Shown piece by piece: positions 5,210 to 42,024 of a DNA stretch of 64,000 nucleotides. Each line of letters starts with the position of its first letter. Within the stretch, counting starts at the first letter, position 1. The notes beneath the pieces were generated by a model that saw only the letters and a program-made list of their open reading frames with translations, was not told the DNA's origin and ran no database searches. The stretch covers positions 105,313 through 169,312 of the forward strand of contig CANNZV010001113.1 of NCBI GenBank assembly GCA_947561585.1. The letters run 5' to 3'. The stretch comes from Caprella mutica (Eukaryota > Arthropoda > Malacostraca > Amphipoda > Caprellidae). Made by a program: the position numbers and the translations under genes.

Positions 5210-5596
5210 GAGTCTAGGAAAATTGATCGAAAGGAAAATTGATCGAATGGATCAGCTACTAAACACAAAGCGATAAATAATAATTTATATATATATAAAT
5301 TATTATTATATATTATATAAATTATTACTATATATCATATAAATTATTATTACATAATATATAAATTATTGTTATTATTATATATAAATCATGGTAACAA
5401 AATCTACTAGCTGTAATATATTGCAAGTAAGTTTCTCTGGTAATCCATGGTTTTAGTTATCATTGTCAGTTAGTGTAGCTAAATCGATCAATTATTATTT
5501 TCGTTCAATTTTGGTTCGACCAATTTTCTATTCGTTCAATTTTCTATTCAATCAATTGCTTTCGGTCAATTGTTTTCGATCAATTTTCCGGATCCC
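5210..5596. mobile_element. Foldback-like element G (387 bp)
   Basis: Short member of the eight-element family described in the findings. The left end GAGTCTAGGAAAATTGATCG and right end (reverse complement GGGATCCGGAAAATTGATCG) are inverted repeats. The right arm carries several degenerate copies of a TTCGATCAATTTTC-type unit and the left arm carries two. The flanking 9-mers AACTCCGAC (5201-5209) and AGCTCCGAC (5597-5605) match at 8 of 9 positions and look like a target-site duplication. The core is nearly pure A+T (TATATAAATTATTATT-like). No coding capacity. Confidence 0.75.
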
Positions 5597-5605
5597 AGCT
5601 CCGAC

Positions 5606-6629
5606 TTCACTCTAACTGATATACTTACGGCAGCTGTCACCGGTGTATCTACTGAGGAGCTTTTCATCAGTTAAACTTTACCAATTGTTTTCCTCTCAAA
5701 AAGTAAATAAGTCAAACAAATTGAGTGTCATCGAAATAATAATTTATATCTGTTTATGATAGCACTTGTTTTTTACTTCTCTAAATTTAGACGCGACCTT
5801 TTAGAAAAAAAAATATAATCTTTAATTTATTTTGATTGAATTTTCTTCGTAAAATATCAAAATTTCAGTTATTTTCGACTAGTTTTTTTGCCAGAATGTT
5901 CAACAAAAGATGATAGACGATAACTGTTATTAATTTAAGATGAATTACCTTTGTATTTTTATTGTATCACTTTTTTTGATAGATGATGTATTTGTCATAG
6001 ATTATAAGTAATCGTAATTATTATTTTCTAACTCGTAAGCTCAATTCTGACGAATTATCATAACTTCAGAGGCTTATCTCTACTGTAAATACGATATAGC
6101 ACAATAACATTGTACTGTTCTTTTAAATGCTCTTGTTATTTAGAGAATTGAAATCCTCTTGTGAATAGTTGTAACTAATCTCAATTTAAATGTTTCTACT
6201 GCAATGGCTATTTGAAATAAATAAAGAATGATATCAGATAAATAATGGGTGTGATTTAGAATATTTCTCATAGATGATCTAACGATTATATAAAATTGTT
6301 TGTTTTATTTAATATGGCTTGCATTCAGTTATTTCTTGAATTATTATCTCATTACTTATCATTTATACTTATTATGATCATAATTATATATCATAAATTA
6401 TTGAAACAGTAATATAACTATCTTTATATTGAATCATTCTAAATTCTATACCATATCTCAACATTCCTAGCTATAATAACCTTATACATTGTAGCATAAG
6501 TACGTAAGTGCACCAATGTTTAACATAGGATATTTGAATGCAATTGCTACTGACAGTGTTATTCCCCTGATAACTGTAAATAATCGCTTACTCAGCATAA
6601 CTTCAAAGTGTGTTTTCTTTCTTTTTCAG
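5606..6629. other. AT-rich stretch, possible intron
   Basis: No gene seen. If the exon starting at 6630 is real, this region is at least partly its upstream intron. A pyrimidine tract precedes the AG at 6628-6629. Confidence 0.4.
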
Positions 6630-6775
6630 GTGACAAGCCAGCAGCAATTCAGAGGCTAGGCTCCGGATGCTCCCATCTGCCTCTCTGCAACCTATACTTC
6701 ATCTCAATATTTTTCCTGATGCAGCTCTTACTGCTGTTTGACGTGCCCACCAGTTTTCAGAGCAACTTGACATGA
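6630..6775 (+). CDS. Possible 3'-terminal exon, membrane-segment protein, unidentified
   Basis: A strong acceptor (TTTTCTTTCTTTTTCAG) ends at 6629. Only one frame stays open, giving 47 codons (6632-6772) and then TGA at 6773-6775. The peptide begins DKPAAIQRLGSGCSHLPLCN and continues into a hydrophobic stretch (YFISIFFLMQLLLLF), compatible with a membrane segment, then a short polar tail. Base composition is clearly GC-richer than the flanks. The upstream exons are not recognised and would lie to the left, beyond an intron. The YFIS-hydrophobic pattern faintly recalls the S6-end segments of voltage-gated channels, but this is too weak for a name. It could also be a chance open stretch. Confidence 0.45.
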
Positions 6776-7530
6776 TGTGTGAAGCAAGGCACTATGCAAT
6801 GGAGTGCTTAGAGTGTACATAGGTAGTGGAAAAGGTGCTCTAGATTAATCTTTTTATTCTGTTCAGCATCTCAAGGTTACTACATCGAAGAGACTGTCCA
6901 AAATTGGTGAAAAACTATTTTATGAATTAGGTGAAATGTTGTAATATTTCTTGTAAATATCCGTTCGTAATTTTTATTGTAAATTGTTATTTGTGATATT
7001 ATCAGAAGTGTGAAAAGGGAGTATTGAATAATTAGGATCTGCATTATTGTTCGAAATCATTCTGAAGCTCGTGTCGGATCAGAATAGCCAATTGAGCGAT
7101 GTTCGTGCATTTTAAGAAGCATAATATAGTAGTTCGTAACTGGAATCATTTTAAAATGCTTTGGAAAACATGCTTTTCATTGAAAAAAAGATTGGCAATT
7201 GAATGAAAATAGAGCTGCCAATTCTAATACACACATTTATTTCTGAAACTGTTTTCGAAAGCGTGTTATGTAAATAGAGAAAATGTAAATGATACTAAGG
7301 TACATACTCTTTAACAAACAGAATGTTGTAAAGATTCTAAAGAACTACCTACATAACAACAAACAACTACTGAGGTTGTAAACATTACAAATATGAATTG
7401 AAATAAAGTACAACAGTTCAAAATTTGTATTTCTTCTGGCAGAAATTATAATAATGTTCAACTAGTGTACTTGCCTTTCAAGTATGACCTGATCTCCATA
7501 ACTAATTTCAAATAAAGTTATTAGATGAAT
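6776..7530 (+). other. Putative 3' UTR with polyadenylation signals
   Basis: This follows the TGA of the putative terminal exon. AATAAA hexamers occur at 7402-7407 and 7511-7516, giving a plausible 3' UTR of about 650-760 nt. Its status depends entirely on whether the 6630 exon is real. Confidence 0.35.
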
Positions 7531-8597
7531 AATTATTATACAATTAATGTAAATAGTATATATATAAATGGTAAGGAATGTAAAATATAGTATATTATAT
7601 TAATTTCAATCTGTTTTCTATTTGTTTCAGAATTAGTAAACATGTCACCTTCTAATTTATGATTTTATAGTGAGTTTTTTAATTTAGTTTATTTCTTCCT
7701 TTATGGTTACTTGGATGGAACATTTTATGTACTGGACCTTTTTTATTTATAATATAAACTTTTAACACTTTATGAGCAAGTTTTGAAACTATTTTGACTC
7801 GTTTATCTTGACGGGAGAGTAAACTAGTTTCAAATAATATTCAAAAATGAAATTGAAATTCAAGTCAGTATTTTGTAGTCCAATTCATCCTTGAATGTTG
7901 GAATAATTTTCGTTGATATTTAATTAAACTTAAGCTATACCTGTTTTTATTATAATTTGCGATAACAAATCAGTATGAAATAGTATAGAAACTTAAAGTT
8001 TTATTAATGAATCTAAATTTAAATCCGGAATATTTACTTTAAATAATTGAGAAAACTCTAAATTCAAAATGTTTCTTTTTGTAGCCAATTATTTACGAAA
8101 TAGAAGGTGACGGACATTTTGTCACCTGAATATATAAAAAAGTAACCCGATAGCTACGAGTCTTCTCACAATGTAAACAACAGACAATGTTCAGCTATAA
8201 AAATTCATTAGCAAGTTAATTATGATGAAATTATAGTTACACTCGCCACTAATTATTGAAATAGTGATTTAAATTCATTTAATTAATATACAAGAATATA
8301 GCACAGTTTGCACTCAGAATATAGATACAACGTCAAAACATCACTGACTTAAATAATATTTAAATAATTCCATTTGAAAGTATTTCTCAAAGTATTTTCT
8401 ATCAGACACATTTACTTCACTTTGTATCTGGAAGAACATACACAAATGTAACTCAAATGATGTTTGCATATTATTAAATGTTTTCTTATGTAAATCGTAA
8501 CCTTTTGTACATTATACCTACCTACTCCACTGACTAAAACGGCTAACATGTGTCATCTGAGGAACTAAAAACACTGATAATGCTAAAACATGATCTG
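7531..8597. other. AT-rich gene-free stretch
   Basis: Nothing beyond low-complexity A+T sequence was seen here on either strand. Confidence 0.6.
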
Positions 8598-9075
8598 ACC
8601 AGTTGTAAAAGTACTGCCTGGTTATCTTACCAGTTGTAATGGTACTGCCTGGTTATATTACCAGTTGTAAAGGTACTGAAAAGCTATCTTACCAGTTGTA
8701 AAGGTTCTCCCTGGCTATCTTACCAGTTGTAAAGGTACTGCCTGGCTATCTTACCAGTTGTAAAGGTACTGCCTGGCTATCTTACCAGTTGTATATGTAC
8801 TCCCTGGCTATCTTATCAGTTGTAAAGGTACTGCCTGGCTATCTTACCAGTTGTAAAGGTACTGATAAGCTATCATACCAGTTGTAAAGATACTGCCTGG
8901 CTATCTTACCAGTTGTATAGGTTCTGCCTGGCTATCTTACCAGTTGTAAAGGTACTGCCTGGCTATATTACTAGTTGCAAAGGTACTGCCTGGTTATCTT
9001 ACCAGTTGTAAAGGTACTGATAAGCTATCATACCAGTTGTAAAGATACTGCCTGGCTATCTTACCAGTTGTACAT
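8598..9075. repeat. 31-bp minisatellite
   Basis: About 15 copies of a 31-bp unit containing ACCAGTTGTAAAGGTACTGC followed by CTGGCTATCTT. Copies are 85-100% alike, with recurrent variants (GATAAGCTATCATACC). Confidence 0.95.
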
Positions 9076-9701
9076 TCTCTCCCTCTCCTTTCCATCTCTC
9101 CATTTTCTCTTCTCTATGTGCTGTACTCGTGTCTATGTTATACATTGTTTAACTTAAGTCAGATGTGTTCTATATTTGAAATGGTCTATAATTATCAATG
9201 TAAAATATCGATTTAGTTCAATTTGTTTATATCCTATAGCTATATGTAAATTAATCAAATAAAGTTTATAGTAAAATTTATGTTTTATTTAATCGCATTT
9301 CACTAACTACATAATATTACTATTCGAAAATAGTATTCGATTTTAAAGTGTCTCCGCACAATTATATCTGTGTTACTCCACCAGTTAAAAAAATAGTGAA
9401 AATGAGCAGTAAAATAGAAAAACTATTAAAATATTTTTCTTGTTGCAAAGTTGTGCCTATGTAACTCCTTTGAGATGGAATTCTTTCATGAAAATGAAAC
9501 TGAAAATTGCTATTTCTCCTCAAAAAAACATTTGCTTAATTTCCATCATGTCTCTGGTGCTGAAAATTGAAAATGTAATTAAGTTGAAATAATATCCCAA
9601 ATGATTCACAGCCCACTAATTAAATGGGTTAACCTTTTCTAATATTACCCAAAGGTTAGTCAGAGAAAAGTCTGTTTCACTTATTCGCATCACTAACCTT
9701 T

Positions 9702-9975
9702 AAAGGGCCGTACACACGTAGGGTTTTTGTAGTCTTTCCACCAGACTTTTTGCTAAGCTCCTCCTACTTTTTCCACGAGAATATAAGAAAAAAAGATAGA
9801 ATAATTATGTATTTATTTTAGTTGGTGTCCATGATACCTGAAAGTATCATGGATACCAACTGAAATAAATAATATTTATATCGTTTTTTCTTATATTCTC
9901 GTGGAAAAAGTAGGAGGAGCTAAGCAAAAAGTCTGGTGGAAAGACTAAAAAAAACCTACGTGTGTACGGCCCTTT
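9702..9975. mobile_element. Palindromic MITE family 1, copy 1
   Basis: The termini AAAGGGCCGTACACACGTAG and its reverse complement bound a long imperfect palindrome. Arms include TAGTCTTTCCACCAGAC and CTCCTCCTACTTTTTCCACG, and the loop holds TTGGTGTCCATGATACC and its inverse. Other copies lie at 36230-36498 and 59325-59586. No coding capacity; a MITE or the remnant of a TIR transposon. Confidence 0.85.
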
Positions 9976-10990: not shown

Positions 10991-11477
10991 GCTGTGTAGT
11001 AGGGTGACAATAAAAAGTCAAAGTTTTTACTTTCAGATGGCCATTTGTCCAATACTGCGTACCCGTGAAAATATAACAGGCGAAATCCTAGGTCATTAGG
11101 ACAATAGAATTTTATCCTTATAGATATACAATTATACATTATGCATATATGCTGGTTTATTTACATCATAATGATCAAGTTTATGAATAATTATTCTTTT
11201 ATAAATACATGATTAATTCCTTTTTTCAATAGAAACTGCAGAATGAACTCTAACAATAGCACTGGAAGAAATAGGAGGGCCAAAAACCCGGTGCAAAAAA
11301 TGAGATCGGCTGACAGAAATAACACTTTCATAGTTTTTTCTAACTAGGTTCTGTTTTGGATTATAGGACAAAAAAAACCTGTGTTTGAAACTCCCAGCTT
11401 GTAAAAAAATGCAATGAAAAAACCTGTCAAAAACCCTGGTGCAAAAACAAAACCAGGTCCATCCAATTCATATTCAC

Positions 11478-13093
11478 GGTGCTAGGAAAATTGCCACCGG
11501 GAAAACTGCCACTAGGAAAATGGCCACTCTGAGAAAACTGCCACTGTGGGATGATTGCCACCCGGATAATTGCTACTGAGGAAAATTGCCACTGTGGTAA
11601 AACTGCCACCCGGAAAATTGCAACTGTACATATACAAATTCATACTGAATTTTTGTTTCGAAAATCACCAAAATCATAGGTATTGAATGCAATGTTGATC
11701 AGAATATAATATATAAGAATTTTTACAATGTGGCAATCTCATTTTGACAAGTTATACGATATAAGTGAATTCCTCCGTCTGTGGGTGTGAGTGTGCTGAT
11801 ACGCAATTAATTCTTAGCTAAATGTGTTTAATTGTTCCCTGAAGAGGTTAAGCCAATTGTAAACATAATCTTGTTGCATTAGTTTCAAAAATAAATAAAA
11901 TTTTGTTGCATTATAGTTTTAATAATACAAAAAATCTTGCTACATTAATTTCACGATAAACAACAAAATATATTGCACCAGTTTCAAAGGAAATAGTTAC
12001 GTCTTATGCCCTGTACACACTAGGCACTAAAAATTACTAGATGCGGGACATCAGCCACATGGCTAGGCATTAAAAAGAGTGCGATGTGTACACACTAGGC
12101 ATGAAGAGATGCTGTACTTTTAACTGAGAATGTCATTGTAATTTCAAAAATGAACCATGTAAAACTTTTCATTTCTAAGAGTAAAAAGTAGAAAAATAGG
12201 TAGTTGCTAATGAAGATATTAAATACGTAAGTAGGTACTTAACTAAAGGGATCCTGCCTTGTTTTCATTAAACTGATGCAGCAAAACAATAATATGTTTA
12301 TTTTTTACCTCTTCATTTGCATTATTTAAATTAATTGATATTTGATTTCAATATTTTTGTGAGCTTTCTTCCCCCTTTTTTATCATAAAAGACCGTTTAT
12401 ATTAGCCACAGACAAGGAAAATCGTGGTGAAATCCAATGAGCTATTAGATTTTTATACTGAAAGTTGCAGCATCAGACTCAAAAGAATGCCAACTTTCGA
12501 TACTATCTTGGACACATAAAGTTGCTCGATTTGGCACTAAATCAGCCAGTTTTTAGTGTGTGTTGCGGGATCATTCACTTTTTAGTGCCTATAGTGTGTA
12601 CGGGACATAAGACAATAAAAGTCAAAGAATTTCAGTAACTCAAATCAATTAGTTATTAAATTATGCTTAAATTTTCAAACTAAAATGTGCCACTCAGGCT
12701 CATTGATCGTTCATTGGTTGAATATTATTTTTTAACTTGTCAATGAAAGATGAACGCACAGTGAAAATTTTCTTTACTTAAAATTCGAATACTTTTGTAT
12801 TCATTTCGGTATTTTTTTATAGAGTAAAATATTTTTTCAGATTGTTAATATATAGTTAATATATTTTATAGTGGCAATTTACCACAGTGGCAATTTTCCT
12901 CAGTGGCAATTTTCCGAGTGGCAGTTTTCCCACAGTGGAAGTTTTCCCACAGTGGCAATTTTCCCAGTGCAATCTTCTCAGTGGCAATTTACCCACAGTG
13001 GCAGTTTTCCCAGTGGCAATTTTCCCAGTGCAATCTTCTCAGTGGCAATTTACCCACAGTGGCAATCTACCCAGTGGCAATTTTCCGCGCACG
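11478..13093. mobile_element. Foldback-like element D (1616 bp)
   Basis: The left arm (11478-11625) has about nine copies of a unit like GGAAAATTGCCACT, and the right arm (12870-13093) has about fourteen copies in inverse orientation (AGTGGCAATTTTCC). The left end is GGTGCTAGGAAAATTGCCAC; the right end reads CGTGCGCGGAAAATTGCCAC on the opposite strand. The flanking 9-mers CATATTCAC (11469-11477) and TATATTCAC (13094-13102) match at 8 of 9. Another MITE (12001-12613) sits in the core. No transposase frame is present. The right arm has three overlapping open frames that are only repeat translations. Confidence 0.85.
12001..12613. mobile_element. TIR element nested in element D
   Basis: The left end GTCTTATGCCCTGTACACAC, followed by TAGGCACTAAAAA, is matched in inverse by the right end (reverse complement GTCTTATGTCCCGTACACAC, then TATAGGCACTAAAAA). 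The ~600-bp interior has no gene. The shared GTACACAC word suggests a distant relation to MITE family 1 termini, but this is not established. Direct duplications could not be fixed because the flanks are palindromic. Confidence 0.7.
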
Positions 13094-13102
13094 TATATTC
13101 AC

Positions 13103-16006: not shown

Positions 16007-16015
16007 AATTTTAAG

Positions 16016-17863
16016 GGTATCCGGTTAATTCATCGGCGTAAATTTATCGCATGGTAAATTCATCGCATGGTAAATTCATCGCATAGTAAATTCATCGCTT
16101 GGTAAATTCATCGCATGGTACATTATAAAATTAAATTAATAAACTTGAATAAACTCTTTGCAAATTATCACGCCGACCTCACTTTATTTTTCGCTGGATT
16201 AGGGTAACTTAATTGTTTGTGCGAATCTGTGCTGTTAGTTTATTTTAAATGATTGGATTTTTAGTAATAGAATGTCCTTAATTTAAATTTATGTTAATTC
16301 TCAAATTACGTATTTGTGTAGCTACTCATAGTTTGAAGAACAACATAACTGTAAATGCTACACTCTTTGAAAATATGATCAGCAAAGCATAATTGCCTCA
16401 GTAAATGGGAACCAGGTTTTCTAATTATTTAAGAGGTATTGCTTACAATTTATCTTATTAAAATTAATTTAGATATATTTTTTGTGCAGTTATAACGATA
16501 GAATTTTAATTTTAATATTAACATTTTGACATATATTATTTCGTGGACCGACAATATTGGGACCAGACAATTGGGCCCCAAGACAATTGGTCCCACGAAA
16601 ATGGGGTCCAATGACCATTATAATATTGGTCCATTTTTTCAGAGTGTAATGTATTAACTTAATCAAAGACCATTGCTACCGTAATGAATTCGGATGTGAC
16701 AATATGCGTTTTGCATAAAAATATAGTTTTGTGCATAATTTAAATAAAGAATATTCCTAATATGAAAAAAATCTTCTTGTTATAAAAAATATTTATTTTT
16801 TAATAGAACACATTCATTTTATGAATAAATACTATTATAAAATAAGAATGTGGGTATTTAAAGAAGGCCGTGGCCCACCAAGACATGCTGAAATCATTGG
16901 AACATACGAGTTGAATTAAAATAAATGTGAATTTGTTGAAGCCTTTTCACTGTTCAATGTTCAATATAGAAAAGTTTTATAAATTATTATTACAAAATTT
17001 ATTCTCATAATATCATTTTATCCCAACAACTGTTCAATATTTCTTAGTTCAATTTAACGAAAATCTTAAAAATCACCCATTTTATTTACTAAATATCAGT
17101 GTTGTCCTTTGTCAGACGATGACAAAGGACATTATTCAAGTTAATATACGACTTATTTAGATATTTCAAATATTTTCATTACACCGAAACATGAGATTAG
17201 TATCCAAAAGTGATTTAATAGGATTTCTATTATATACCTTATCAAGTAAATCAATCGAATTAAGAAATTATAAACATATTTTTAGATAAAATAAAACATA
17301 ATTCAAAGATAATATTGGCACTACCCTAGTAATAACAAAGTAACACTTCTTTATTGTGTCTTCTTTCTATTTTTTTTCTGACTCAATCATTTTGGGGCCC
17401 AATTGTCACGGCCCAATTGTCGGTGCACCATATTATTTGTAACGTACAATGTCTTTTTTTGAAAAAACATCTATTATTTACCTCTCCATTATTTGTATTA
17501 TCTACATTCCTGTTATATAGCACCGATGATTTACTATATATGCAATGAATTTACATACCTGCGATGAAATTACCATGCGATGAATTTACCATGAGATGAA
17601 TTTACCATGAGATGAGTTTACCATGCGATGAGTTTACCATGCGATGAATTTACTGCGATGAATTTACCCTCGATGAATTTACCATTCGATGAATTTACCA
17701 TGCGATGAATTTACTGCGATGAATTTACCATTCGATGAATTTTACCATGCGATGAGTTTACCATGCGATGAACTTACCATGCAATGAATTTACCATGCGA
17801 TGAATTTACCCGCAATGAATTTACCATGCGATGAATTTACCCGCAATGAATTTACACTGATCC
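16016..17863. mobile_element. Foldback-like element C (1848 bp), host of element A
   Basis: The left arm (16016-16130) has five copies of a GGTAAATTCATCGCAT unit. The right arm (17540-17863) has about 18 copies in inverse orientation (ATGCGATGAATTTACC). The left terminus is GGTATCCGGTTAATTCATCG. The flanking 9-mers AATTTTAAG (16007-16015) and AATTCTAAG (17864-17872) match at 8 of 9. The core contains a second complete element of the same family (A, 16542-17429). No coding capacity seen. Confidence 0.85.
16542..17429. mobile_element. Foldback-like element A (888 bp), nested in C
   Basis: The ends CGTGGACCGACAATATTGGG and (reverse complement of the right end) GGTGCACCGACAATTGGGCC are inverted, followed by further GACAATTGGGCCC-type units in each arm. 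A perfect 9-bp duplication, ATATTATTT, lies at 16533-16541 and 17430-17438. The core resembles that of element B (26767-27826) in reverse orientation, for example the ACAATATGCGTTTTGCATAA stretch. No transposase. Confidence 0.88.
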
Positions 17864-17891
17864 AATTCTAAGAGGTGCTCGGACACTCATA

Positions 17892-18931
17892 CCCAGGGAG
17901 AATATTATGGTGGGGTCATAGAAGATTATGGTGGACAGACATTATGGGGGGCTAGATCTTACGTGATTATAGATAATATTCGATAAATATCAACCTTGTG
18001 CAAAACATCCTATAAACATCTATAATCACCGTAATACTTGCCAACCATGATGTATAGTATATTACATCAACCAAAATATCCGAATATTTTCTGATAATGT
18101 TCCTTATATGAACTTCTATGAATGAACCATCTTAAATCTTCGAAGATTTAAGATGGTTCAGTCATAGAAGTTCATATAAGAAATACCATCAGAAAATCTT
18201 CGAAGATTTAAGATGGTTCAGTCATAGAAGTTCATATAAGAAATACCATCAGAAAATCTTCGAAGATTTAAGATGGTTCAGTCATAGAAGTTCATATAAG
18301 AAATACCATCAGAAAATCTTCGAAGATTTAAGATGGTTCAGTCATGGAAGTTCATATAAGAAATACAATCAGAAAATATTAGAAGATTTAGGATGGTTCA
18401 GTCATAGAAGTTCATATAAGAAATACCATCAGAAAATATTAGAAGATTTAAGATGATTCAATCATAGAAGTTCATATAAGAAATACCATCAGAAAATATT
18501 AGAAGATTTAGGATGGTTCAATCATAGAAGTTCATATAAGTAATATTATCAGAAAATATTAGAAGATTTAAGATGATTCAATCATAGAAGTTCATATAAG
18601 AAATACAATCAGAAAATCTCTCCAGATTTAAGATGTTACAGCCATTCAAATTCATAGTAGGATTATTATCAGAAAATCTTCGTAGATTTAAGATGGTTCA
18701 TTCATAGAAGTTCATATAAGGAACATTATCAGAAAATATTCGGATATTTTGGTTGATATAATCTACTATACATCATGGTTGGGAAATATTACGGTGATTA
18801 TAGATGTTTATAGGATGTTTTGCACAAGGTTGATATTTATCGAATAATATCTATAATCACGTAAGATCTAGCCCCCTATAATGTCGGTCCACCATAATCT
18901 TCTATGACCCCACCATAATATTTTCCTTGGG
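17892..18931. mobile_element. TIR element Z with ~250-bp inverted arms and internal 60-bp repeats
   Basis: The left arm starts CCCAGGGAGAATATTATGGT. The reverse complement of the right end starts CCCAAGGAAAATATTATGGT, and the two arms stay more than 90% alike for over 100 bases (to about 18140 and from about 18683). TA dinucleotides flank both ends (17890-17891, 18932-18933). The centre is a tandem array of a 60-bp unit that itself continues the arm sequence. No open frame of note. A third related terminus (TTTTCTCCCTGGGTA) lies at 19740-19754 without a visible partner. Confidence 0.8.
18145..18745. repeat. 60-bp tandem repeat inside element Z
   Basis: About ten copies of a 60-bp unit containing ATTTAAGATGGTTCAGTCAT and then AGAAGTTCATATAAG. 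Copies at the left side are nearly identical and those to the right are more diverged. The unit is the same sequence as the inner part of the element's inverted arms. Confidence 0.95.
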
Positions 18932-18940
18932 TAACGATAT

Positions 18941-19754: not shown

Positions 19755-19827
19755 TAGTACTTGGAAAGCTCATGACCCAATCTGACCTTTATAAATTTAT
19801 AATCGTTCTATCACTTATGTTAAAAGG

Positions 19828-20932
19828 GGTTCTAGGACAACTCGCTGCTGGACAATTCGCCGCCGGACAACTCGCCGCGGACAATTCGCCGTGCGGACAA
19901 CTCGTCGCCAGGACAACTCACTGCCAGGATAACTCACTGCATGATTTATGTTTTAATAACGTATATACTATAATATCATTTACATTTTACATAATATTTT
20001 ATATTGAAAAATATTATAAATTTTAACTAAGATATATTTCTAGAAATACGCCTAAGAGTGACGTAAAACAGTATTTGACAAATTTCATTATTTCAATTTT
20101 TTTTTCATATTTTTCTCTGTGAAAATATTTCAGACCGCAAAAATATTAGAGTTATTATTCTAAAATTTAGTAGCGTTTAAAGTGTGCCTCAAATAGAAGG
20201 GCCTTGTCGTTGACATCAAAAGGAAATTAAATAAATATCAAAAGTCAGAAAGCAAACTGGCTCCTTGAACCAAAACACAAACCACCAGTCAGTGACAAGC
20301 TCATGGATGCAGAAAAGCTACTTCGTGAATGCAGTTAAATACCCAGGAATGAGATGAAAAAAGACAAAAGCACCTGGGTCTACACCCAAGAAAAGAAGAG
20401 GAAAATGAAGAGGTCATTAGTTAGTGTTATTAGCCTACCTAGCACAAAAATATAATACCTCGTAGTTAAAGAAGCTTTCATTTGCACTGATGTACTATAG
20501 TACTAGTTTTAACATTTAAACAAAAGTAATTTTTATAAATCATTAAATGTATTAGGAAGACATTTGAACTTGTTTTCTTTCCAATCGCAACTTATTTTTA
20601 GCATAATAGTTTCAAATAGAACAAAGAAAATTTATTGTTAGTTTACAACACTCACTATGTTTATAATAGTTTAGGTTATATTTCCATTAAAAAAATATTT
20701 CATTTAACTTTTGAAAAGGAAAAGAAAACATTTTCAAATAGGGCTAAGAAAATTTGATAATTAATTTACAACACGCAGTTTATACTTATATTTTTATAAA
20801 TAAATGGTGTATACGGCGGTAAAATATAAATCCCACGGCAAGTTGTTTTGGCGGCGAATTGTCCTAGCGGCGAATTGTCCTCACGGCGAATTGTCCGCGT
20901 CGAATTGTCCGGCGGCGAGTAGTCCGGTCACC
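19828..20932. mobile_element. Foldback-like element E (1105 bp)
   Basis: The left arm (to about 19945) has about seven GGACAACTCGCCGC-type units. The right arm (20825-20932) has inverse units (GGCGGCGAATTGTCC). The ends GGTTCTAGGACAACTCGCTG and (reverse complement of right) GGTGACCGGACTACTCGCCG fit the family consensus. The flanking 9-mers GTTAAAAGG (19819-19827) and GTTTAAATG (20933-20941) match at 7 of 9. The core includes a copy of another dispersed repeat (20190-20475). No transposase. Confidence 0.8.
20190..20475. repeat. Dispersed ~290-bp repeat, copy within element E
   Basis: Matches 56893-57190 over most of its length, for example ACCACCAGTCAGTGACAAGC, AAAAGCTACTTCGTGAATGC and AGAGGAAAATGAAGAGGT. 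A short piece (about 49385-49440) also occurs in PUS3 intron 5. Function and class are unknown. Its position inside element E means either insertion or capture. Confidence 0.75.
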
Positions 20933-21000
20933 GTTTAAATGCACTATCTGAGTACTGTGCGTGTGCAACTAGAACCCTCTGCCAGGTCAAAGAACAATCA

Positions 21001-21135
21001 TGAAGTGTGAAGTTCAACAAGCTAGCGGATACAACAAACTACATAATAACCATTTACGTTGAGAGGTCATTTATCATTCCGAGACCAAGAGTTCTGAGAC
21101 CCAAATTTGCGAGATCGAAATTTCCGGCCACCAGC
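21001..21135. repeat. Dispersed repeat, first of a pair
   Basis: Shares CTAGCGGATAC, ACTACATAA, GTTGAGAGGTCATTTAT and TTTCCGGC with 25030-25145 in the same order. A non-coding interspersed repeat of unknown class. Confidence 0.65.
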
Positions 21136-23366: not shown

Positions 23367-25019
23367 CGGAATGTTTTTTACATCAAATTGGTCTTAAGAA
23401 TTAGGTAGTGTAATATAAAATTTGAAAATTCATTAATTTCATATTAATTTGCTGCAATAGATGAATTATGTTGAGCGTAGTCTGTAGATAATATAGAAAT
23501 TAATCGTTATATTTTGAAATCATATAGGGTTACATAACATAGGAATATTAAAGAGATTTACATTTGTAAGAATCTATTATTTTCTTCATTAGTTGGGTGC
23601 ATTAGAATCAAAAGAATGATTGTGATTTGCATCTAAAGCTTATTAATTGAGTGAGAATTAATCAGTCTATGGTTATATCCTTCGGAAATCCGCCATTTAG
23701 TTTAATTCGTTACTATTCTTTCAATTCCACTCACCCAATTAAGGAAAGTTTTACAAACTTCAAACATGTATGATATTATTATATTAGAATTTATACATCA
23801 TAGAGTTTGTGTATTTTGCTCCAAGGTTATTTTATTATAATATTGTTTGAGTAGCTCGGCCAGAAATTGCTACAAAATTATAAATGTGAAAATATCGAAT
23901 TTCTACATAAGTTCAAATTACAACAGTTCGATGCGAAATTAACTCTATGTATTAAAATAAAAGATACACAGTAATTAACTACGTATATTAAATATACCCC
24001 TTTTCTAATGACTAATCAGAACTCTACTGTTAGTTTCAGTAATTATTCATTATTCCAGTGTATCTTGTATGCGAAATTAATTGAAAAGATGGATTTATTG
24101 CGGAAGATAAAAGATGTAATTAACCAATGAATTAATTAGAGAAACACAATGAGAATATCTCTCACAATATAATAATAGGAAACAGTAATTCAAATGGTAG
24201 CTTCATTATCACTGTTATTATTCGCTAAAATATAAACAATATAAACAATAATGGAGTTCAAATTGACATTGCACTTAATTAAGTGTAGTGTTAATTGAGT
24301 GTTATTAATTAATACATGGAGTGATTTCAATTGATTGCTAATTATTATTGTATTTATCAATTGCTTTTAACATCATTCACGCTTTATGAAGTAGGTAGGT
24401 AGAGCTAAAATTATTACGATTCTATTTAACTCATTTGGATTTCTAAATAATGATTCATATAATTTATTTATATTGTATTAGTACCATTATGGTAACAACT
24501 ATCAAAATTATATTCCTTGAATAGTTCAGTTGCTAAATCATTTACAAGTTGAGAATTATTGATTTATATTATTTTAATGGTAATGAAATTAAATTGCAAA
24601 TGTATCTACCTACAAGTTGGCATCGCTAAATAATGTATGGCTATATTCATATTACATTATTTTTAGATTTGATCGAAATCAGATTTTCTTAATTGGATAG
24701 CGTAATAAAAATATACTCTACTTATATCCTAAACAGTTCTATGAAAATTCAGTCTCAGAAGACTCAGTCTCAGTTTATAATGGTGCTATTGAAGAACAAT
24801 AATAGAAAAAGTTGAAATTACGAATAATAAAATGTGTAGTGTATTTATTAACAGCGAATAACATCATTAACTGTTTTAAAATGATTCGTAACATTAGTAA
24901 GTTTGACATTTATGTCATGAGATTTGAGAGGAAAATTCGGTTTCTGAACTTTCAGACTGAGGTATAAATAAAACTTATAAATTAGATGTATCGGGGATCG
25001 TGCCTCACCCCTTATACAT
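23367..25019. other. AT-rich gene-free stretch
   Basis: Very A+T-rich, with no array, element borders or exons that I can support. Confidence 0.6.
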
Positions 25020-25029
25020 CTAATAATCA

Positions 25030-25145
25030 TAAAGTGTACAGTACAACAAACTAGCGGATACAGCAAACTACATAAGTACCATTTATGTTGAGAGGTCATT
25101 TATAAATCCGAGGCTAAAATCTCCGAGACAGAATTTTCCGGCTAC
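25030..25145. repeat. Dispersed repeat, second of a pair
   Basis: Partner of 21001-21135, with the same order of words including ACTAGCGGATAC and GTTGAGAGGTCATTTAT. Confidence 0.65.
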
Positions 25146-25182
25146 CATCCTAATCTCCTAAACAGTATCTAAAATATATCCG

Positions 25183-26696: not shown

Positions 26697-27879
26697 AGGG
26701 TAAGTTACGAATGATCGGTCAGTACTACATCTTCGGTCATATAAGAAATAACTATACAAATATTATGGTGCACAGACAATTAGACTCGCCGACAATTGGG
26801 CCCGCGACAATTGGACCCCGGATAATTAAGTCCAGAAAAAGATTGGGCAGAAGACACAATAAAGAAGTTTTACTTTGTTATTACTATGGTAGTGACAATA
26901 TTATCTTTGGATTATTCTTCATATTCTCTAAAAATATGTTAATATTTTTTTAATTCGATTGATATACTTGATAAGGTATAAGCAAGCCCCTTAAATCACA
27001 TTTGGATGCTAATCTCATGTTTCAATGTAATGAAAATCTTTGAAGTATATGAATAGATCGTATTATTTTGATCATGTCATATGGATCCAATGTGTAGTGT
27101 ACATCGTCTGACAAAGACTAATATTTAGTAAAAAAAATGGGTAAATTTTAAAGGTTATACGTTACATTGAATTGTTGTTGCGATAAAATGAGATTAATAG
27201 AATAAATTTTATAATAATAATTCATAAAACTCTTAAATATTGAACACTGAACAGGCCTTAAAAAATTTACATCAATTTTAATTCAATTTGTATGTTCCAA
27301 TAATTTCGGCATATCTAATATACCTACATTATTATTTTCTATTGACTACATCCTAACTCATTCACTATGCAGGAGTTCACTATATAGACTCATATAGGTA
27401 CTGTAACTAGGAACAGAAAATTCTATCTCAGCAGAACAGAAAATTATTTTAGTTTAAAATAATAATAGTATTTATTCAAGCAAAGAATATGTTCAATTAA
27501 AAAAAAAATTTCATAATGAGAATATTTTTTTTATGTAAGGAATATTCTTTATTTTAAATATGCTCAAGACTATATTTTTATACAAAACGCATATTGTCAC
27601 AACCGTAGTTATGACAGTAGCAAGGATCTTTAATTAAGTTAATACAGTAAACTCTGAAAAATGGGCAAATAATATAATTGTCTTTGGACCTAATTGTCGT
27701 CAGCCCAATTGTCCGGAACCCAATTGTCGGGGGCTCAATTTTCCTGAGCCCAATTTTCCTGAGCCAAATTGTCGGCGGGCCCGATTGTCGGGACCCAATT
27801 GTCTTGGGCCCAATTGTCGGTCCACCAAAAATTATATGTCCCAAAATGTAGGGCTGACCGATAATTCATAACTTACCCT
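26697..27879. mobile_element. MITE family 2 copy interrupted by element B
   Basis: Left terminus AGGGTAAGTTACGAATGATC, then GGTCAG...CTTCGGTCATATAAG; right terminus on the opposite strand AGGGTAAGTTATGAATTATC. These match the element at 59601-59829. Nearly all of the interior is element B (26767-27826), which apparently inserted into this MITE and replaced or split its centre. Confidence 0.7.
26767..27826. mobile_element. Foldback-like element B (1060 bp)
   Basis: The left end GGTGCACAGACAATTAGACT and right end (reverse complement GGTGGACCGACAATTGGGCC) are followed by further GACAATTGGGCCC-type units, three on the left and about eight on the right. The flanking 9-mers AAATATTAT (26758-26766) and AAAAATTAT (27827-27835) match at 8 of 9. 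The core is related to that of element A in inverse orientation. The minus-strand open frame over the right arm (27578-27844) is a repeat translation. Confidence 0.87.
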
Positions 27880-28325: not shown

Positions 28326-28327
28326 TA

Positions 28328-30630: not shown

Positions 30631-30835
30631 ATCACAAACGCTATTGTGCATTGCATAGGAGATGGTCAGACTTTGAAGAGGTAATACTGACAGTGTCTTT
30701 TTATTGTAATGGATATAAATAAATTGACATAGTTCTAGAAAAAGAATTTTCTCGGCATTAGCTTTAGTTACTTGGAAAATCCAATACTCTATATTTGATT
30801 TCAAAATTTTAAAATAAAATGATATAATAAAATAT

Positions 30836-31429
30836 CGTGCACGGACACTTGGCCGACCGATCATTTAGCCGAAAGCAGATTTGGCGTAAATTTGGCCGAA
30901 CGGACATTTGGCTGAAAGACTGACTTTTATTCAATAAAAATCCACATTACGAACTACAGCCTCCATTTAATTTAATTACAATTTTTATTTTCAAGGAATT
31001 GAAAGTTATTTTATAAAAGGAAATCAAATTTTAATATGTACATAATGTGTATCCATAATACGAACTGCAACCTCCGGTTAATTATTAAATATACGTTTTT
31101 TTTTTCTATCGAATTTTAAGTCATTTTCTATAAAAAAAAGGAAAATTTATTTTAGTGTGTACAAAATGCGTTTCCATATTATGAACGGCAAGCATATATT
31201 GCTCAACAATTTGAATTTTTTCATAATCATGGATTTCATCGGAAATATAAGGAGTGGAAAAAAGCTTCTCTTCCTACTTTCGAACTTGTTATCATTGGTT
31301 ATTATATTATTCAAAGTTATTATTTTAATTACTAATAATACTATCTCATTTTTTTTTTTTTTTCAAAATAAATATATTTCGGCCAAATGTGTTTCGGCGA
31401 AGTGTCAGTCAGCCAAGTGTACGTCAACC
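30836..31429. mobile_element. Foldback-like element F (594 bp)
   Basis: The left arm carries CGTGCACGGACACTTGGCCG and further ACATTTGGCCGAA-type units to about 30920. The right arm (31378-31429) has inverse units (TTCGGCCAAATGT). A perfect 9-bp duplication, ATAAAATAT, lies at 30827-30835 and 31430-31438. The core is A+T-rich with a T-run at about 31351. No gene. The plus-strand open frame 31157-31507 runs through the arm and looks incidental. Confidence 0.87.
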
Positions 31430-31438
31430 ATAAAATAT

Positions 31439-33374: not shown

Positions 33375-34745
33375 CAATACATACACATAGTTAATGAAAT
33401 ACATAGTTAAAGAAATACATAGTTAATGAAATACATACACATAGTTAATGAAATACATACACATAGTTAATGAAATGCATACACATAGTTAATGAAATAC
33501 ATACACATAGTTAATGAAATACATACACATAGTTAATGAAATGCATACACATAGTTAATGAAATACATACACATAGTTAATGAAATACATACACATAGTT
33601 AATGAAATACATACACATAGTTAATGAAATGCATACACATAGTTAATGAAATACATACACATAGTTAATGAAATGCATACACATAGTTAATGAAATACAT
33701 ACACATAGTTAATGAAATACATACACATAGTTAATGAAATACATACACATAGTTAATGAAATGCATACACATAGTTAATGAAATGCATACACATAGTTAA
33801 TGAAATACATACACATAGTTAATGAAATACATACACATAGTTAATGAAATGCATACACATAGTTAATGAAATGCATACACATAGTTAATGAAATGCATAC
33901 ACATAGTTAATGAAATGCATACACATAGTTAATGAAATGCATACACATAGTTAATGAAATACATACACATAGTTAATGAAATACATACACATAGTTAATG
34001 AAATGCATACACATAGTTAATGAAATGCATACACATAGTTAATGAAATACATACACATAGTTAATGAAATGCATACACATAGTTAATGAAATGCATACAC
34101 ATAGTTAATGAAATGCATACACATAGTTAATGAAATGCATACACATAGTTAATGAAATGCATACACATAGTTAATGAAATGCATACACATAGTTAATGAA
34201 ATGCATACACATAGTTAATGAAATACATACACATAGTTAATGAAATGCATACACATAGTTAATGAAATGCATACACATAGTTAATGAAATGCATACACAT
34301 AGTTAATGAAATACATACACATAGTTAATGAAATTCATACACATAGTTAATGAAATGCATACACATAGTTAATGAAATGCATACACATAGTTAATGAAAT
34401 GCATACACATAGTTAATGAAATGCATACACATAGTTAATGAAATGCATACACATAGTTAATGAAATGCATACACATAGTTAATGAAATGCATACACATAG
34501 TTAATGAAATGCATACACATAGTTAATGAAATGCATACACATAGTTAATGAAATGCATACACATAGTTAATGAAATGCATACACATAGTTAATGAAATGC
34601 ATACACATAGTTAATGAAATGCATACACATAGTTAATGAAATGCATACACATAGTTAATGAAATGCATACACATAGTTAATGAAATGCATACACATAGTT
34701 AATGAAATGCATACCTGTTGTTAGTTAATGAAATGCATACATGTT
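33375..34745. repeat. 22-bp minisatellite, ~61 copies
   Basis: Array of ACACATAGTTAATGAAATGC plus AT. The left third alternates ACATAC and GCATAC versions, whereas the right part (from about 34325) is almost purely the GCATAC version, pointing to recent homogenisation there. The last copies carry ATACCTGTTGTTAGTTAATG variants. It shares ACACATAGTT with the 21-bp array 200 bases upstream. Confidence 0.97.
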
Positions 34746-36229: not shown

Positions 36230-36498
36230 AAAGGGCCGTACACACGCAAGGATTTTTAGTCTTTCCACCAGACTTTTTGCTAAGCTCCTCCTACTTTTTC
36301 CACGAGACCAATGAATTATATAAGAAAAAAATGATAAAATTATTATTTATTTTAGTTGGTATCCATGATACCTAAATTTAAATAATAATTTTATCGTTTT
36401 TTTCTTATATAATTTAAAAGTCTCGTGGAAAAAGTAGGAGGAGCTTAGCAAAAGTATGATGGAAAAACTTAGAAAACCCTTCGTGTGTACGGCCTTTT
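36230..36498. mobile_element. Palindromic MITE family 1, copy 2
   Basis: Starts AAAGGGCCGTACACACGCAA and ends with the inverse (GTGTGTACGGCCTTTT). It has the same arms and TTGGTATCCATGATACC loop as 9702-9975. Confidence 0.85.
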
Positions 36499-37180: not shown

Positions 37181-37444
37181 TTAATTACCTTCGCCAAATT
37201 GCGGAAAGATATGTTTTCATCGGCATTTTTTCATTATTTATTTATTTGCAATTTTGCTATATCATAAATTGGTAAAAAAATTATACAACCAAATTGCCTG
37301 AAATTTAGTGGGACGATTGGTTATTATCCAGTAACCATTTGATTAGATTTTGGGAGCGATCAGATCAAAGGTCAAGGTCATGAAAAGGACAAAATCGTTT
37401 GAAGTGGCGGTGAAGGAATGCGCTCTACGAGTGCCCGTTCTAGT
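37181..37444 (+). repeat. Dispersed AAGGTCAAGGTCA repeat, copy 4
   Basis: Begins TTAATTACCTTCGCCAAATT, contains AAAGGTCAAGGTCATGAAAA and ends CTCTACGAGTGCCCGTTCTA. This is the most complete copy and defines the element's ends. Confidence 0.8.
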
Positions 37445-37605
37445 TAGATCTTGTTTTGAGACTATTGTGTATCTTGTATCTAACAATTCCAAGTTTTCCT
37501 CAGAATAATGAGCTAGCTACATGCAAGAAGTTAATTATTTCGTTGAAAAGAATGTCTCAAACCAAACAGATGAAAAGAAATAATAGAGAATTAAGAACAC
37601 CAACA

Positions 37606-38038
37606 CACCAGTGGTTTACCATCACACCAGTGGTTTACCAACACACCAGTGGTTTACCATTACACCAGTGGTTTACCAACACACCAGTGGTTTACCAACA
37701 CACCAGTGGTTTACCATTACACCAGTGGTTTACCATTACACCAGTGGTTTACCATTACACCAGTGGTTTACCATCACACCAGTGGTTTACCAACACACCA
37801 GTGGTTTACCATTACACCAGTGGTTTACCAACACACCAGTGGTTTACCAACACACCAGTGGTTTACCATTACACCAGTGGTTTACCATTACACCAGTGGT
37901 TTACCATTACACCAGTGGTTTACCATCACACCAGTGGTTTACCATCACACCAGTGGTTTACCATCACACCAGTGGTTTACCATCACACCAGTGGTTTACC
38001 ATCACACCAGTGGTTTACCATCACACCAGTGGTTTACA
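37606..38038. repeat. 19-bp minisatellite, ~23 copies
   Basis: Array of CACACCAGTGGTTTACCAT-type units in three variants (CATCAC, CAACAC, CATTAC). The unit has no stop in any plus-strand frame, so three overlapping long open frames arise. None has coding context. Confidence 0.97.
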
Positions 38039-38534
38039 TAATGTAAAATTATATCACTGTAAAAAACATATGGACATGCTTTGTTTAATATTAGTGTACA
38101 ATATAGTTAGCAGAGTAGGAGGCAGAGTTAATGTCAGTTACCATACTAATGTACTGATCTCTACTCTCACTAAATATATCGCTGACGCAGCAAATTACAA
38201 CAGTGCGGATATGCTGACTTTGCTCTAAGTTGTTATTACCTTAACTTGACTTAATGTTTGCCTTAATTGAGATCCTAAAAGTTACTTTCTAATTTACAAA
38301 AATGTGAAAATATATTACTAATAAAAATAATATTAAAAAATCATTGCGTATGGTACACAATGGTAAATAAATTGGATAAAACACAACCGTTGCAGCCACA
38401 ACCCTCACATATTTATGATCTGCATCTCGTGACCATCATTAGAAATAAAAAATATATTTCATTCAATCTATTGTTTTTATTGAGTTACTAGCCGGAGAAA
38501 AAAATAATATGAAACTTTTAACTGACTGGTGTAA

Positions 38535-39308
38535 TGAGTAAAAGTGTAGTAAATATGTAGTAAAAGTGTAGTGAATGTGTAGTAAATATGTAGTAAAAGT
38601 GTAGTAAATGTGTAGTAAAAGTGTAGTGAATGTGTAGTAAATATGTAGTAAATATGTAGTAAAAGTGTAGTGAATGTGTAGTAAAAGTGTAGTAAATGTG
38701 TAGTAAATATGTAGTAAATGTGTAGTAAATTTGTAGTAAATATGTAGTACATGAGTAGTAAATATATAGTAAATGTGTAGTAAATGTGTAGTAAATGTGT
38801 AGTAAATATGTAGTACATGTGTAGTAAATGTGTAGTAAATATGTAGTAAATGTGTAGTAAATATGTAGTAAATATGTAGTAAAAGTGTAGTAAATGTGTA
38901 GTAAAAGTGTAGTAAAAGTGTAGTAAATATGTAGTAAATATGTAGTAAAAGTGTAGTAAATGTGTAGTAAATATGTAGTAAATGTGTAGTAAATGTGTAG
39001 TAAATATGTAGTACATGAGTAGTAAATATATAGTAAATGTGTAGTAAATGTGTAGTAAATATGTAGTACATGTGTAGTAAATGTGTAGTAAATATGTAGT
39101 AAATGTGTAGTAAATATGTAGTAAATATGTAGTAAATGTGTAGTAAATGTGTAGTAAATGTGTAGTAAATATGTAGTAAATGTGTAGTAAATATGTAGTA
39201 AATATGTAGTACATGTGTAGTAAATGTGTAGTAAATGTGTAGTAAATATGTAGTACATGTGTAGTAAATGTGTAGTAAATGTGTAGTAAATATGTAGTAA
39301 ATGTATAA
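38535..39308. repeat. 11-bp minisatellite, ~70 copies, with 264-bp higher-order repeat
   Basis: Array of GTAGTAAATGT/GTAGTAAATAT. The marker GTACATGAGTAGTAAATATA recurs 264 bases apart (near 38748 and 39012), which is 24 units, showing a segmental duplication inside the array. The minus strand is open in three frames purely because of the unit. Confidence 0.96.
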
Positions 39309-39724
39309 TATAGTTACTAATGCTATTTAGTGAGTTTCAATCAACTTCCTCTGCTAATATGCAACATTTTCTCTTCAATTCTCCTCTCAAATCTCTGAGA
39401 GAAATGCCACAACCTAAAGCACGGAGAGTTCCATTAGACTGTTCCCAGTCGAGTGTTTATATCACTTTAATAATAAATGGGAGAGTGGGTCCTTCGTACA
39501 AACAAATAAAAACACAAAAAACCATTGAAACCACAAAAAAATAAAAGAGCGAGTGATGAAAATCTATTAAGTTACACTTAACTAGGAGTATTTTAGTTAC
39601 TCTTAATTAAAGACAGTCTACGGACTTGACTAAGAGCATTTCAGTTACTCTTAATTAAGAATCATTTTACAGGCCTTTAAGCACCTATAATCTTGATTGG
39701 AAGATAATAATATCTTAAATGATG
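39309..39724. other. Gene-free stretch
   Basis: A short open frame (39320-39544) has no known motif. Two copies of an ACTTAACTAGGAGTATTTTAG-like phrase (about 39575 and 39625) resemble the 25-bp unit at 42362. Confidence 0.4.
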
Positions 39725-40800
39725 CTCAATTCTGGTTCAGAAGGAACAGAGATACCACTCAGGCAATTGTTAGGCATTGAATTTATATCTATAATAATTT
39801 TGATAATGATGATTTGGTATTTTCTTTGTATCTTGATTTCCAGAAAGCCTTCGATAGCGTAGACCACAATATATTGATGGAAAATTTATATTTTTTTGGT
39901 GTGAGGGGCCATCCCTATTATTGGTTAAAATCCTATTAGAGGGACAGGAAGCAAGATGTTAATAACAATAATGAACAGTCACAAACTAGATCCATAACTC
40001 ATTCTGTTTATCAAGGGAGCAACTTATGCCCCTTATTATTTCTGACTACGGGAATGACTTGCCATCATGCAATAATTTCTTTAACTTTGTCATGTTTGCT
40101 GATGATTGTACATTACCATGTCCAATTCAACGTGATAACTTAGACAATGCTTACCAAACTATTAATGCTAATTGGTTGTGAGTATATAGTTTGACCAGAT
40201 CAAACAAAATAAAAATAAATGTACAAAAAATTAAAGTTATGGTATTTTCATATAGAGGTGAATTCCATCGAAGGCAGCCGGTTTTGATTGGTGGTGATGC
40301 TGTTGAACAGAATAATTTTATCAAGTTTTTAGGAATCACTTTCTCGCCATGTACATTGTATTTCAAGTAGTATCTCACGAACCTTAGGTATGTTATACAA
40401 ACTACGTGATTTCTTTCCTTTAACAATAATGAAATGTTTCTATTATTCTCCAGTATTTCCTTTCATTAACCAAGGCACATAAGTATGGTTTAATGCAGCA
40501 CCAAACTATGTGGTGGAAGAAGTGGAAATTCTGCAGAGGAAGATTATTAGAGTGTTAAAATTCTTGCCTCATAATGACCACACCTTGCAGCATTTCATGA
40601 ATATGAAGCTTGTACCAGTCAAAGCTACATATATGTTAAGCATGTACAAAGCTCTGAAAATAGATGGATTTGACACAGATTTGTCTAGCAAATCACTGCA
40701 CTGTTAAAATTTGGAACTTTGTACCTGAGGATTTAAAATTTCTGTATACTGTCATAGCATTTTCACGTAATTAAAAGTATATTTGTTGTCTAGCTTACAG
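39725..40800 (+). pseudogene. Degenerate non-LTR retrotransposon reverse transcriptase
   Basis: Translated pieces show successive motifs of a Jockey/CR1-type LINE reverse transcriptase. They are a GFR-like WFRRNRDTTQAIV, then LDFQKAFDSVDHNILMENLY (39828 on), SVYQGSNLCPLLFL, the catalytic-type VMFADDCTL, then NNFIKFLGITFSP, and the C-terminal VEILQRKIIRVLKFL. In-frame stops (after QAIVRH and WLKSY) and frameshifts (after CPLLFL) show that it is dead. The 5' part of the element is missing. The FADD box retains both aspartates, although the reading frame around it is broken. Confidence 0.85.
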
Positions 40801-40887
40801 GAATTAGACTTTGTTGTTTGATCTAAGTTTATTGAAAGATTAACATGTATCAACTGCATTACCATAATATTTACAGACATTCTTATC

Positions 40888-42024
40888 GGTAGCCGGTGAA
40901 TTCCTCGAAGAAACAATTGCTAGGATGAACATTGCTCGAATTATCGATCGCTCCAATAATTCAAAGAAATGTAATATAGGTATTATCAATCAATAATTAT
41001 AATCAGTGACGTTTAGCGGCAGCTAATCGAATTGATTCCACTTCCTGATTAACTGACTTTTTACAATTCATCAAATAAACAATTGTCGAATAATGAATTT
41101 CTCAAATAATCAAATTTCGTATAACCAATTACTTAATTTAAAAGAAGAGGAAGAGTAAACAAGATAAGGACTACAGCAAAGGCAATTTTAAAAAGCAAGT
41201 GGCTCGAATATCAGAGGTCATGCTAAATGTTTCGAGTTCACCCTATGGTTTTGTCTCCAAAGCGAGACACTTTAGTGCATATACTTATAGTTTGGATGCA
41301 CTAAAGTGTATCAGTTCGATGCACTTTAGTTTTTCAGAAATAAGTTGTTAAAATAATGAGGAAATTATTCTCATCATTTTAGCAAAGGAAAATTTGAGAC
41401 ACTAAAGTGCATCGAACGGATGCACCTTCAAGCCTGAGTGCATCCAAACTATAGTTTGATGCACTAAAGTATTTCGCTTTAGAGACAAAGCCATAAGGTG
41501 AACTCGAAACACCTGGGTGCATCAGAGTGTGTCTCATGAACAACCACTCCTCCTGATACCGACAGTTCCCATAACCCAAGTTGCTTAAACCTAACAACTA
41601 TAACCTAGCCATAAGAATATCTCGTCGGAGCTCACTGGAGCGATTGACCGACGAAAAAACGAAAATTGTAGAACTGAAATTTGCTGCAGTTATTCCAGTT
41701 TTATAGAAATAAGAAAATCAGAAAAAGTAAGAATAGTAATTAGTGATAAAAAAAATGTAATACAGATACTATTAATTACTAATTAGAAACCAGAACAGTT
41801 AAGTGAAGCTAATTGAAGTGATTCAACTTCATATAATTAACTGACTTTTAAAAATTGGTTTATGTAACCAATTTGAATATTCGAGCGATTGTTCATTCAA
41901 TCAATTGTTTGTTCGATCAATTGTTTGTTCGATCAATTGTTCGTTCGATCAATTGTTTATTCGAGCAATTGTCCTTAGAGCAATTTTTTTCGAGTAATTA
42001 TTTTTCAAGCAATTTACCCAGTAC
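40888..42024. mobile_element. Foldback-like element H (1137 bp)
   Basis: The left terminus GGTAGCCGGTGAATTCCTCG is followed by degenerate CAATTG...TCGAA units. The right arm (41870-42024) has about ten TCGATCAATTGTTTGT-type inverse units and ends ATTTACCCAGTAC. The flanking 9-mers ATTCTTATC (40879-40887) and ATTCTCATC (42025-42033) match at 8 of 9. A further palindromic element (41227-41512) lies inside. It starts about 90 bases after the LINE relic. Confidence 0.82.
41227..41512. mobile_element. Palindromic MITE nested in element H
   Basis: The arms TTCGAGTTCACCCTATGGTT and GTCTCCAAAGCGA at the left return in inverse at 41450-41512. Multiple GTGCATC/GATGCAC words fill the interior. No coding capacity. 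Confidence 0.7.

Follow-up and report, generated by a model that had tools for sequence, protein, structure and literature searches.

In the Foldback (FB) elements of Drosophila a core lies between inverted arms built of short tandem repeats, and the target duplications are 9 bp long. Closer in design are two groups with a Foldback-like Mutator organization. In the passages compared here, Tm1 of root-knot nematodes is described as having asymmetric 7-bp end motifs, GGA, and 13-15 bp tandem units whose number varies; its duplications are mostly 9 bp (8-10 bp in 45 of 53), and one long member encodes a FLYWCH+MULE transposase (PMC3169594). Muta1-14 of Aedes aegypti are described, again in the passages compared, as having 8-9 bp duplications and, in 10 of 12 families with long terminal inverted repeats, a short terminal motif followed by 9-15 bp subterminal tandem repeats; all families but one include gene-less derivatives, and Muta1 is a type 2 Foldback element that moves in yeast (PMC5225508). 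The Phantom subclass of Mutator-like elements, as far as the same sort of excerpt describes it, combines an N-terminal FLYWCH finger with a MULE transposase domain, and makes 9-bp duplications (PMC6446971, PMC3169594). Nine elements of this general design lie in the stretch analyzed here (the window: 64,000 bases of one Caprella mutica contig, CANNZV010001113.1), which was compared with the rest of the genome (903 Mb in 7200 contigs). Probably all nine belong to the Phantom type and are non-autonomous, depending on FLYWCH+MULE transposases that act in trans; a probability of about 0.92 seems appropriate for this reading.

Like Tm1 as described, these elements mostly have unlike 7-bp tips, then GGA, tandem units and 9-bp duplications, and are associated with a FLYWCH+MULE transposase. 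The sequences of tips and units are different, and the published Tm1 unit (motif C, CGATTCAGTATCCGC) was not seen, by eye, in any of the 14 unit types found here. Tm1 is described in the passages compared as one family, whereas here 14 unit types occur under one tip design in one genome. Muta shares the 8-9 bp duplications, the terminal motif with subterminal tandem repeats, and the gene-less derivatives; the rule of two different tips and a half-unit shared across families, both present here, are not reported for Muta in the passages compared. The likeness to Drosophila FB (inverted short-tandem-repeat arms, 9-bp duplications) is one of architecture. Because Tm1 and Muta already display the same Foldback-like Mutator design, the kind is known and the elements described here are further members of it; the one superfamily that an earlier first-pass annotation of the window proposed is supported, but it is not new. 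The Tm1 and Muta passages compared do not extend to so many unit types sharing a single tip rule within one genome, nor to the conserved half-unit.

The same annotation had proposed a single terminal consensus of about 20 bases. AATT does stand at a fixed place in most ends, but the consensus hid two distinct 7-base tips, here called CC (approximately GGTGNCC) and TA (approximately GGTTCTA). Among 25 elements bounded at both ends (nine in the window, 11 from pattern-picked loci, and five with transposase), 16 have one tip of each type and none has two alike, while at least one tip of neither type is found in the other nine; unlike tips are found in 15 of 24 when loci L009 and L018 are merged into one insertion. 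Counted once per family, CC/TA tips occur in 8 of 13 families (permutation p 0.0014), a test from which family F14 is absent, having a single known tip, and in which the end labels for F4 and F6 are arbitrary. Three pairs dropped before the count (L014 105-709, 5/9; L021 4796-5778, 4/9; L025 3537-4616, 6/9) each have one CC and one TA tip.

Behind the tips stand tandem units of about 15 bases. Bases 1-8 are near GGAMAATT, with GGA opening the unit in 11 of the 14 types, and bases 9-15 are more variable; the sorting into types was manual, and certain types lie near each other (F5/F9, F2/F12). Both ends of an element carry the unit of its family in like form, and across families it is the outer half of the unit that remains near GGAMAATT. 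Counted over all nine window elements with 2-3 mismatches allowed, 109 units are directed inward and 4 outward; the inverted short-repeat arrays recognized in the first pass stand, with a unit length of 14-16 bp.

A MULE domain search of the genome gave 59 matches, and six loci were fetched, including those on contigs C74, C2450, and C8. The Phantom-type loci read number 11: C74, C2450, and nine more (C107, C884, C580, C491, C3840, C5796, C1458, C628, and C1048). Five of the 11 are bounded by tips and arrays of the kind seen in the window. At C74, a 495-codon open frame with FLYWCH (PF04500, 1.6e-16) and MULE (PF10551, 2.4e-15) domains according to Pfam lies in an element that ends in the tips GGTTCTA and GGTAGCC, has units AACAATTGCTCGAA, and is flanked by a 9/9 duplication. 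The C2450 locus has a 430-codon MULE frame (PF10551) between tips CGTGACC and GGTGCTA, and an 8/9 duplication; this element lies in a 44-base tandem array, the remaining units of which show the unbroken site. At C107, C884, and C580 a tip closes the element on either side, GGTGCCC on one and GGCGCTA or GGCTCTA on the other, with duplications of 8/9 at C107, 8 exact bases after a one-base shift at C884, and 9/9 at C580. The C580 copy keeps both ends and its duplication with the transposase reduced to a 250-codon remnant, and is an intermediate between long and short elements, deleted for the gene. At two further loci, C5796 and C1458, a common tip (GGTGACA) and one array type are found at one end (for the first of the two, by direct reading of the sequence). 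The suggestion that the elements depend on a transposase encoded outside the window is therefore supported, FLYWCH+MULE genes lying inside elements with matching tips, arrays, and 8-9 bp duplications. Within the window, none of the listed open reading frames of at least 150 codons overlaps the nine elements, and the window's own contig has none of the transposase matches that the genome searches listed.

The C74 protein gave at least 92 matches in the genome (from 86 scored of 969 candidates), and its two domains recur together in 110 of 120 proteins listed, most of them unnamed. When 12 and 53 proteins are aligned, residues D217, D279, and E411 prove either invariant or conserved at 90% or more; from the MULE pattern they are putative catalytic residues. 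The solved structure closest to its predicted fold is ISCth4, at about 11% identity over model residues 159-468, with the FLYWCH finger outside the match; ISCth4 is an IS256-family transposase of bacterial origin. The Phantom features found here are thus the FLYWCH and MULE domains (at C74), the conserved acidic residues, and duplications within 8-11 bp, the assignment being by domains and duplications.

Two other loci deserve mention. Adjoining a Phantom-type element on contig C107, the stretch L037 282-1280 holds some 67 repeats of 15 bases, ACACTTGGCCCAATG, whose sequence is close to that of the element 7 unit, and is possibly a satellite grown from a transposon array. The region fetched from contig C8 (L033, 192500-199500) has a G+C content of 0.59 (0.325 in the window) and a Transposase_mut gene (9.1e-142); this 1.34 Mb contig is likely bacterial sequence in the assembly, from a symbiont or a contaminant.

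Two of the nine window elements (Table 1) can be linked to a transposase, each through one identical tip plus arm. Element 8 shares the tip GGTAGCC with C74, their arms being 75-84% identical over 94-194 bases, and family F7 thus has a complete transposase-bearing relative. The right end of element 3, GGATCAG followed by units GGTAAATTCATCGCA, is common to C491 and C3840; this link for F3 is seen at one end only, the reads at both loci stopping before the opposite ends. In addition, the F2 unit resembles that of C2450. The shared end design, the 9-bp duplications, and these two elements carrying the tip and array of a transposase locus together argue that all nine are likely non-autonomous elements of Phantom type.

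A different Mutator-related transposase, of the Rehavkus-like Ulp1-protease/PHD kind or with PHD and OTU domains, might instead move some of the nine, their ends being shared by descent or through cross-mobilisation. Such MULE proteins are present in the genome (L030 on C2013, L034 on C2488, and L032 on C6722), and six window unit types have no transposase partner. However, no tip pair with flanks matching at 7/9 or better was listed within the 7 kb read at these three loci, against five bounded Phantom-type loci; and the tip design is the same whether or not a family has a known partner. On balance this explanation is unlikely. Unlike Rehavkus, the C74 protein has no PHD finger, Pfam giving FLYWCH and MULE only. 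As to the three loci themselves, one of the MULE proteins adjoins an Ulp1-protease frame with a PHD match below the Pfam cut-off (Rehavkus-like), and one adjoins a PHD+OTU frame.

The length of the target duplications bears on a second alternative. In the eight elements of the first-pass annotation, whose coordinates and flanking 9-mers were recovered exactly as claimed, two of the pairs being perfect, the mean matched fraction of the flanks is 0.903 at length 9, falling to 0.34 at 8, 0.33 at 10, and 0.375 at 7. P-superfamily Foldback elements of the Galileo type also have long, internally repetitive, Foldback-like arms, according to the excerpts compared. Galileo duplications are 7 bp long, and its transposase has a THAP domain. 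A Galileo-like family was rejected as highly improbable, given the duplication length of 9 and a C74 protein in which FLYWCH and MULE, but not THAP, are matched.

Could the flanking matches be accidental? Mismatched pairings of left and right flanks average 3.05 matches of 9, and the observed sum is reached by only one of 40,320 pairings, the true one. At randomly placed borders, 8 or more positions match in 0.2% of trials without jitter, and in 3.9% when both borders are allowed a 3-base jitter. The freedom of the borders is in any case limited. Bases 12-15 of the tip are AATT in 10 of 16 ends, with one mismatch in four and two in one (20932), and at the right end 42024 AATT comes one base earlier; because its position is nearly constant, the borders are largely fixed by sequence.

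A terminus-pair scan of the window and 20 fetched loci, with a model built from the window's own ends and with the loci preselected as pattern matches, gave, at scores of 12 or more, 11 pairs whose flanks agree at 8-9 of 9 positions, and none in shifted frames. The same scan brought a ninth element to light at 24735-25146: all eight elements of the first count hold, and one more had been missed. At a low score of 6 there were 15 pairs with 7/9 matches compared with 7.8 in shifted frames, so that lone 7-of-9 pairs at this score are weak evidence; several competing 7-of-9 pairs were left uncounted (L010 4147-5013, L018 3997-9104, L018 4042-6228, and low-score window pairs). Two elements with 9-mers at 2/9 and 3/9 (L016 and L043) were retained because a one-base shift gives an exact 8-bp duplication. 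Across the genome, 2057+2191 sites fit the terminus pattern when up to 2 mismatches are allowed, compared with 60+66 for its reversed control.

Empty sites were sought for three window elements (16542-17429, 26767-27826, and 24735-25146), with the genome's other places as targets, and unbroken ones are present for two of them. Joined flanks of element 4, with one copy of the 9-mer, are uninterrupted in 31 of 40 places among the matches listed. At the window's own locus the match is broken into two parts, 1-120 and 112-240, which overlap by exactly nine bases; two more listed places match over 1-107 only. On contigs C136, C507, C4094, C3855, and C1938, copies of the core of element 3 start precisely at base 112, where the nested element is inserted; these five may be copies already carrying the insert, as if the two elements had travelled, or been duplicated, as one composite. 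Element 6 interrupts a small palindromic repeat, which is found in unbroken form at 6 other places (12 of 123 matches). Borders can also be defined by comparing copies: C107 and C884 align from tip to tip in two pieces, ending within one base of both tips; the alignment of C491 with C3840 ends at their common tip, and element 3 aligns to C3840 up to the same tip; and, among pattern-picked copies, alignments end at the tips for L010/L014 and at one end for L010/L021 and L018/L025. The window elements are insertions. Unrelated minisatellite-like inverted arrays with chance-matched 9-mers in AT-rich DNA, to which a window rich in tandem arrays (77 rows) might lend itself, were rejected as scarcely credible given the empty sites, the copy-defined borders, and the pairing test.

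Several observations weigh against the assignment of all nine elements to Phantom-type transposases acting in trans, or against particular parts of its support. Six unit types (F1, F2, F4, F5, F6, and F8) have no transposase partner among the 11 loci read, and the tips of F4 and F6 fall outside the CC/TA rule. Four of these loci (C491, C3840, C5796, and C1458) have a single matching end, C1048 has none, and the array near C628 is of uncertain membership. The Pfam FLYWCH scan covered C74 and C2450 alone, with the N-terminus of C2450 cut off; the C2450 element has a further internal TA-type end (L031:2472), although flanks so paired match at 2/9 rather than 8. Most of the listed matches to the C74 protein contain stops. 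With one locus per group, the similarity of units does not follow that of transposases significantly (rho 0.25, with 124 of 720 permutations as high, the sixth group being the doubtful C628 array; rho 0.12, with 42 of 120 as high, for five families). Except for L016, the 11 pattern-picked elements were preselected for at least 7/9 matches, and for this reason their duplications are not independent evidence. The ninth element yielded no empty site: of 40 places listed, two are its own locus and 38 lie in the right flank, none of these 38 crossing the junction. Other copy alignments end inside arrays, short of the tip, and that of L009 with L018 continues beyond the tips, because the whole segment is duplicated and the two represent one insertion.

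The coordinates of the nine elements, which occupy 8,159 of the 64,000 bases, are collected in Table 1.

Table 1. The nine window elements in order of position, with left and right values separated by a slash; matches between flanking duplications are in parentheses.
Element	Position	Length (bp)	Unit type	Unit	Tips	Arrays	Duplications	Units	Remark
1	5210..5596	387	F1	GGAAAATTGATCGAA	GAGTCTA / GGGATCC	5216-5251, 5484-5588	5201-5209, 5597-5605 (8/9)	2/7	
2	11478..13093	1616	F2	GGAAAATTGCCACTG	GGTGCTA / CGTGCGC	11485-11625, 12870-13086	11469-11477, 13094-13102 (8/9)	9/13	
3	16016..17863	1848	F3	GGTAAATTCATCGCA	GGTATCC / GGATCAG	16038-16124, 17556-17855	16007-16015, 17864-17872 (8/9)	6/20	
4	16542..17429	888	F4	GACAATTGGGCCC			16533-16541, 17430-17438 (9/9)	2/2	nested in element 3
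5	19828..20932	1105	F5	GGACAATTCGCCGCC	GGTTCTA / GGTGACC	19834-19935, 20851-20918	19819-19827, 20933-20941 (7/9)	5/5	
Ninth	24735..25146	412	F8	GGAAAATTCTGTCTC	AGTTCTA / GGTAGCC		24726-24734, 25147-25155 (8/9)	2/1	few units
6	26767..27826	1060	F4			26775-26827, 27692-27820	26758-26766, 27827-27835 (8/9)	2/9	
7	30836..31429	594	F6	GGACACTTGGCCGAC	CGTGCAC / GGTTGAC		30827-30835, 31430-31438 (9/9)	4/3	
8	40888..42024	1137	F7	AACAATTGCTCGAA	GGTAGCC / GTACTGG	41880-42014	40879-40887, 42025-42033 (8/9)	7/10	right tip degenerate, one base short

The window has other features of interest. An extra CC-type end, GGTGGCC, is found at 21132 on the minus strand, followed by units resembling F8; a search for its left mate between 15000 and 21100 gave four 9-mers at 7/9 as the best matches, none with an adjoining tip. 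At 17890-18933 is a foldback-like structure, with 260-base arms, 96% complementary, flanking ten copies of a 60-base tandem repeat. Large tandem arrays at 33417-34714, 44009-45363, 51428-53972, and 57665-58735, with units of about 22-46 bases, are by eye unrelated to the elements. The only host-gene-like window frame scanned with Pfam, an exon-like frame at 48794-49318 on the minus strand, matches tRNA pseudouridine synthase (PF01416, 3.4e-26).

If the nine elements are indeed moved by Phantom-type enzymes, a scheme for their movement can be suggested. Each end presents a 7-bp tip, usually unlike at the two ends, and then an inward tandem array of 14-16 bp units. The transposase would bind these units, probably via its FLYWCH finger, and its RNase H-like core would cleave the DNA at the tip and insert the element at a 9-bp staggered target, giving rise to the duplication; the domains, the predicted fold, and related elements all point in this direction. 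Short elements would arise from long ones by gene loss, as the C580 remnant illustrates, and the transposase would act on them in trans, its finger reading the variable half of the unit; this family-specific half would keep families apart.

A transposase-repeat code of this kind is plausible, although the correlation of unit and transposase similarity is not significant. No description of one operating across families was found in literature titles and abstract openings, Repbase being outside the search. A more elaborate version seems conceivable, if rather doubtful: that the genome is a library of orthogonal transposase-DNA pairs, in which a common core reads the tips and the GGAMAATT half, a diverged FLYWCH finger reads the variable half as a family key, and unlike tips mark left and right, making the synaptic complex polar. 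Families would then split by changing the key in every repeat, at both ends at once, and as a result, if this is true, elements with closely related catalytic cores would no longer mobilise each other.

Similarity-based annotation could assign these elements to many unrelated repeat families, yet they are united by a single tip rule, a single half-unit and, where visible, a single transposase type. The terminus model can be used to find such elements where the transposase is gone. With 14 unit types and diverged FLYWCH+MULE transposases in one genome, Caprella mutica offers a testable case of joint change in a transposase and the repeat that it likely binds.

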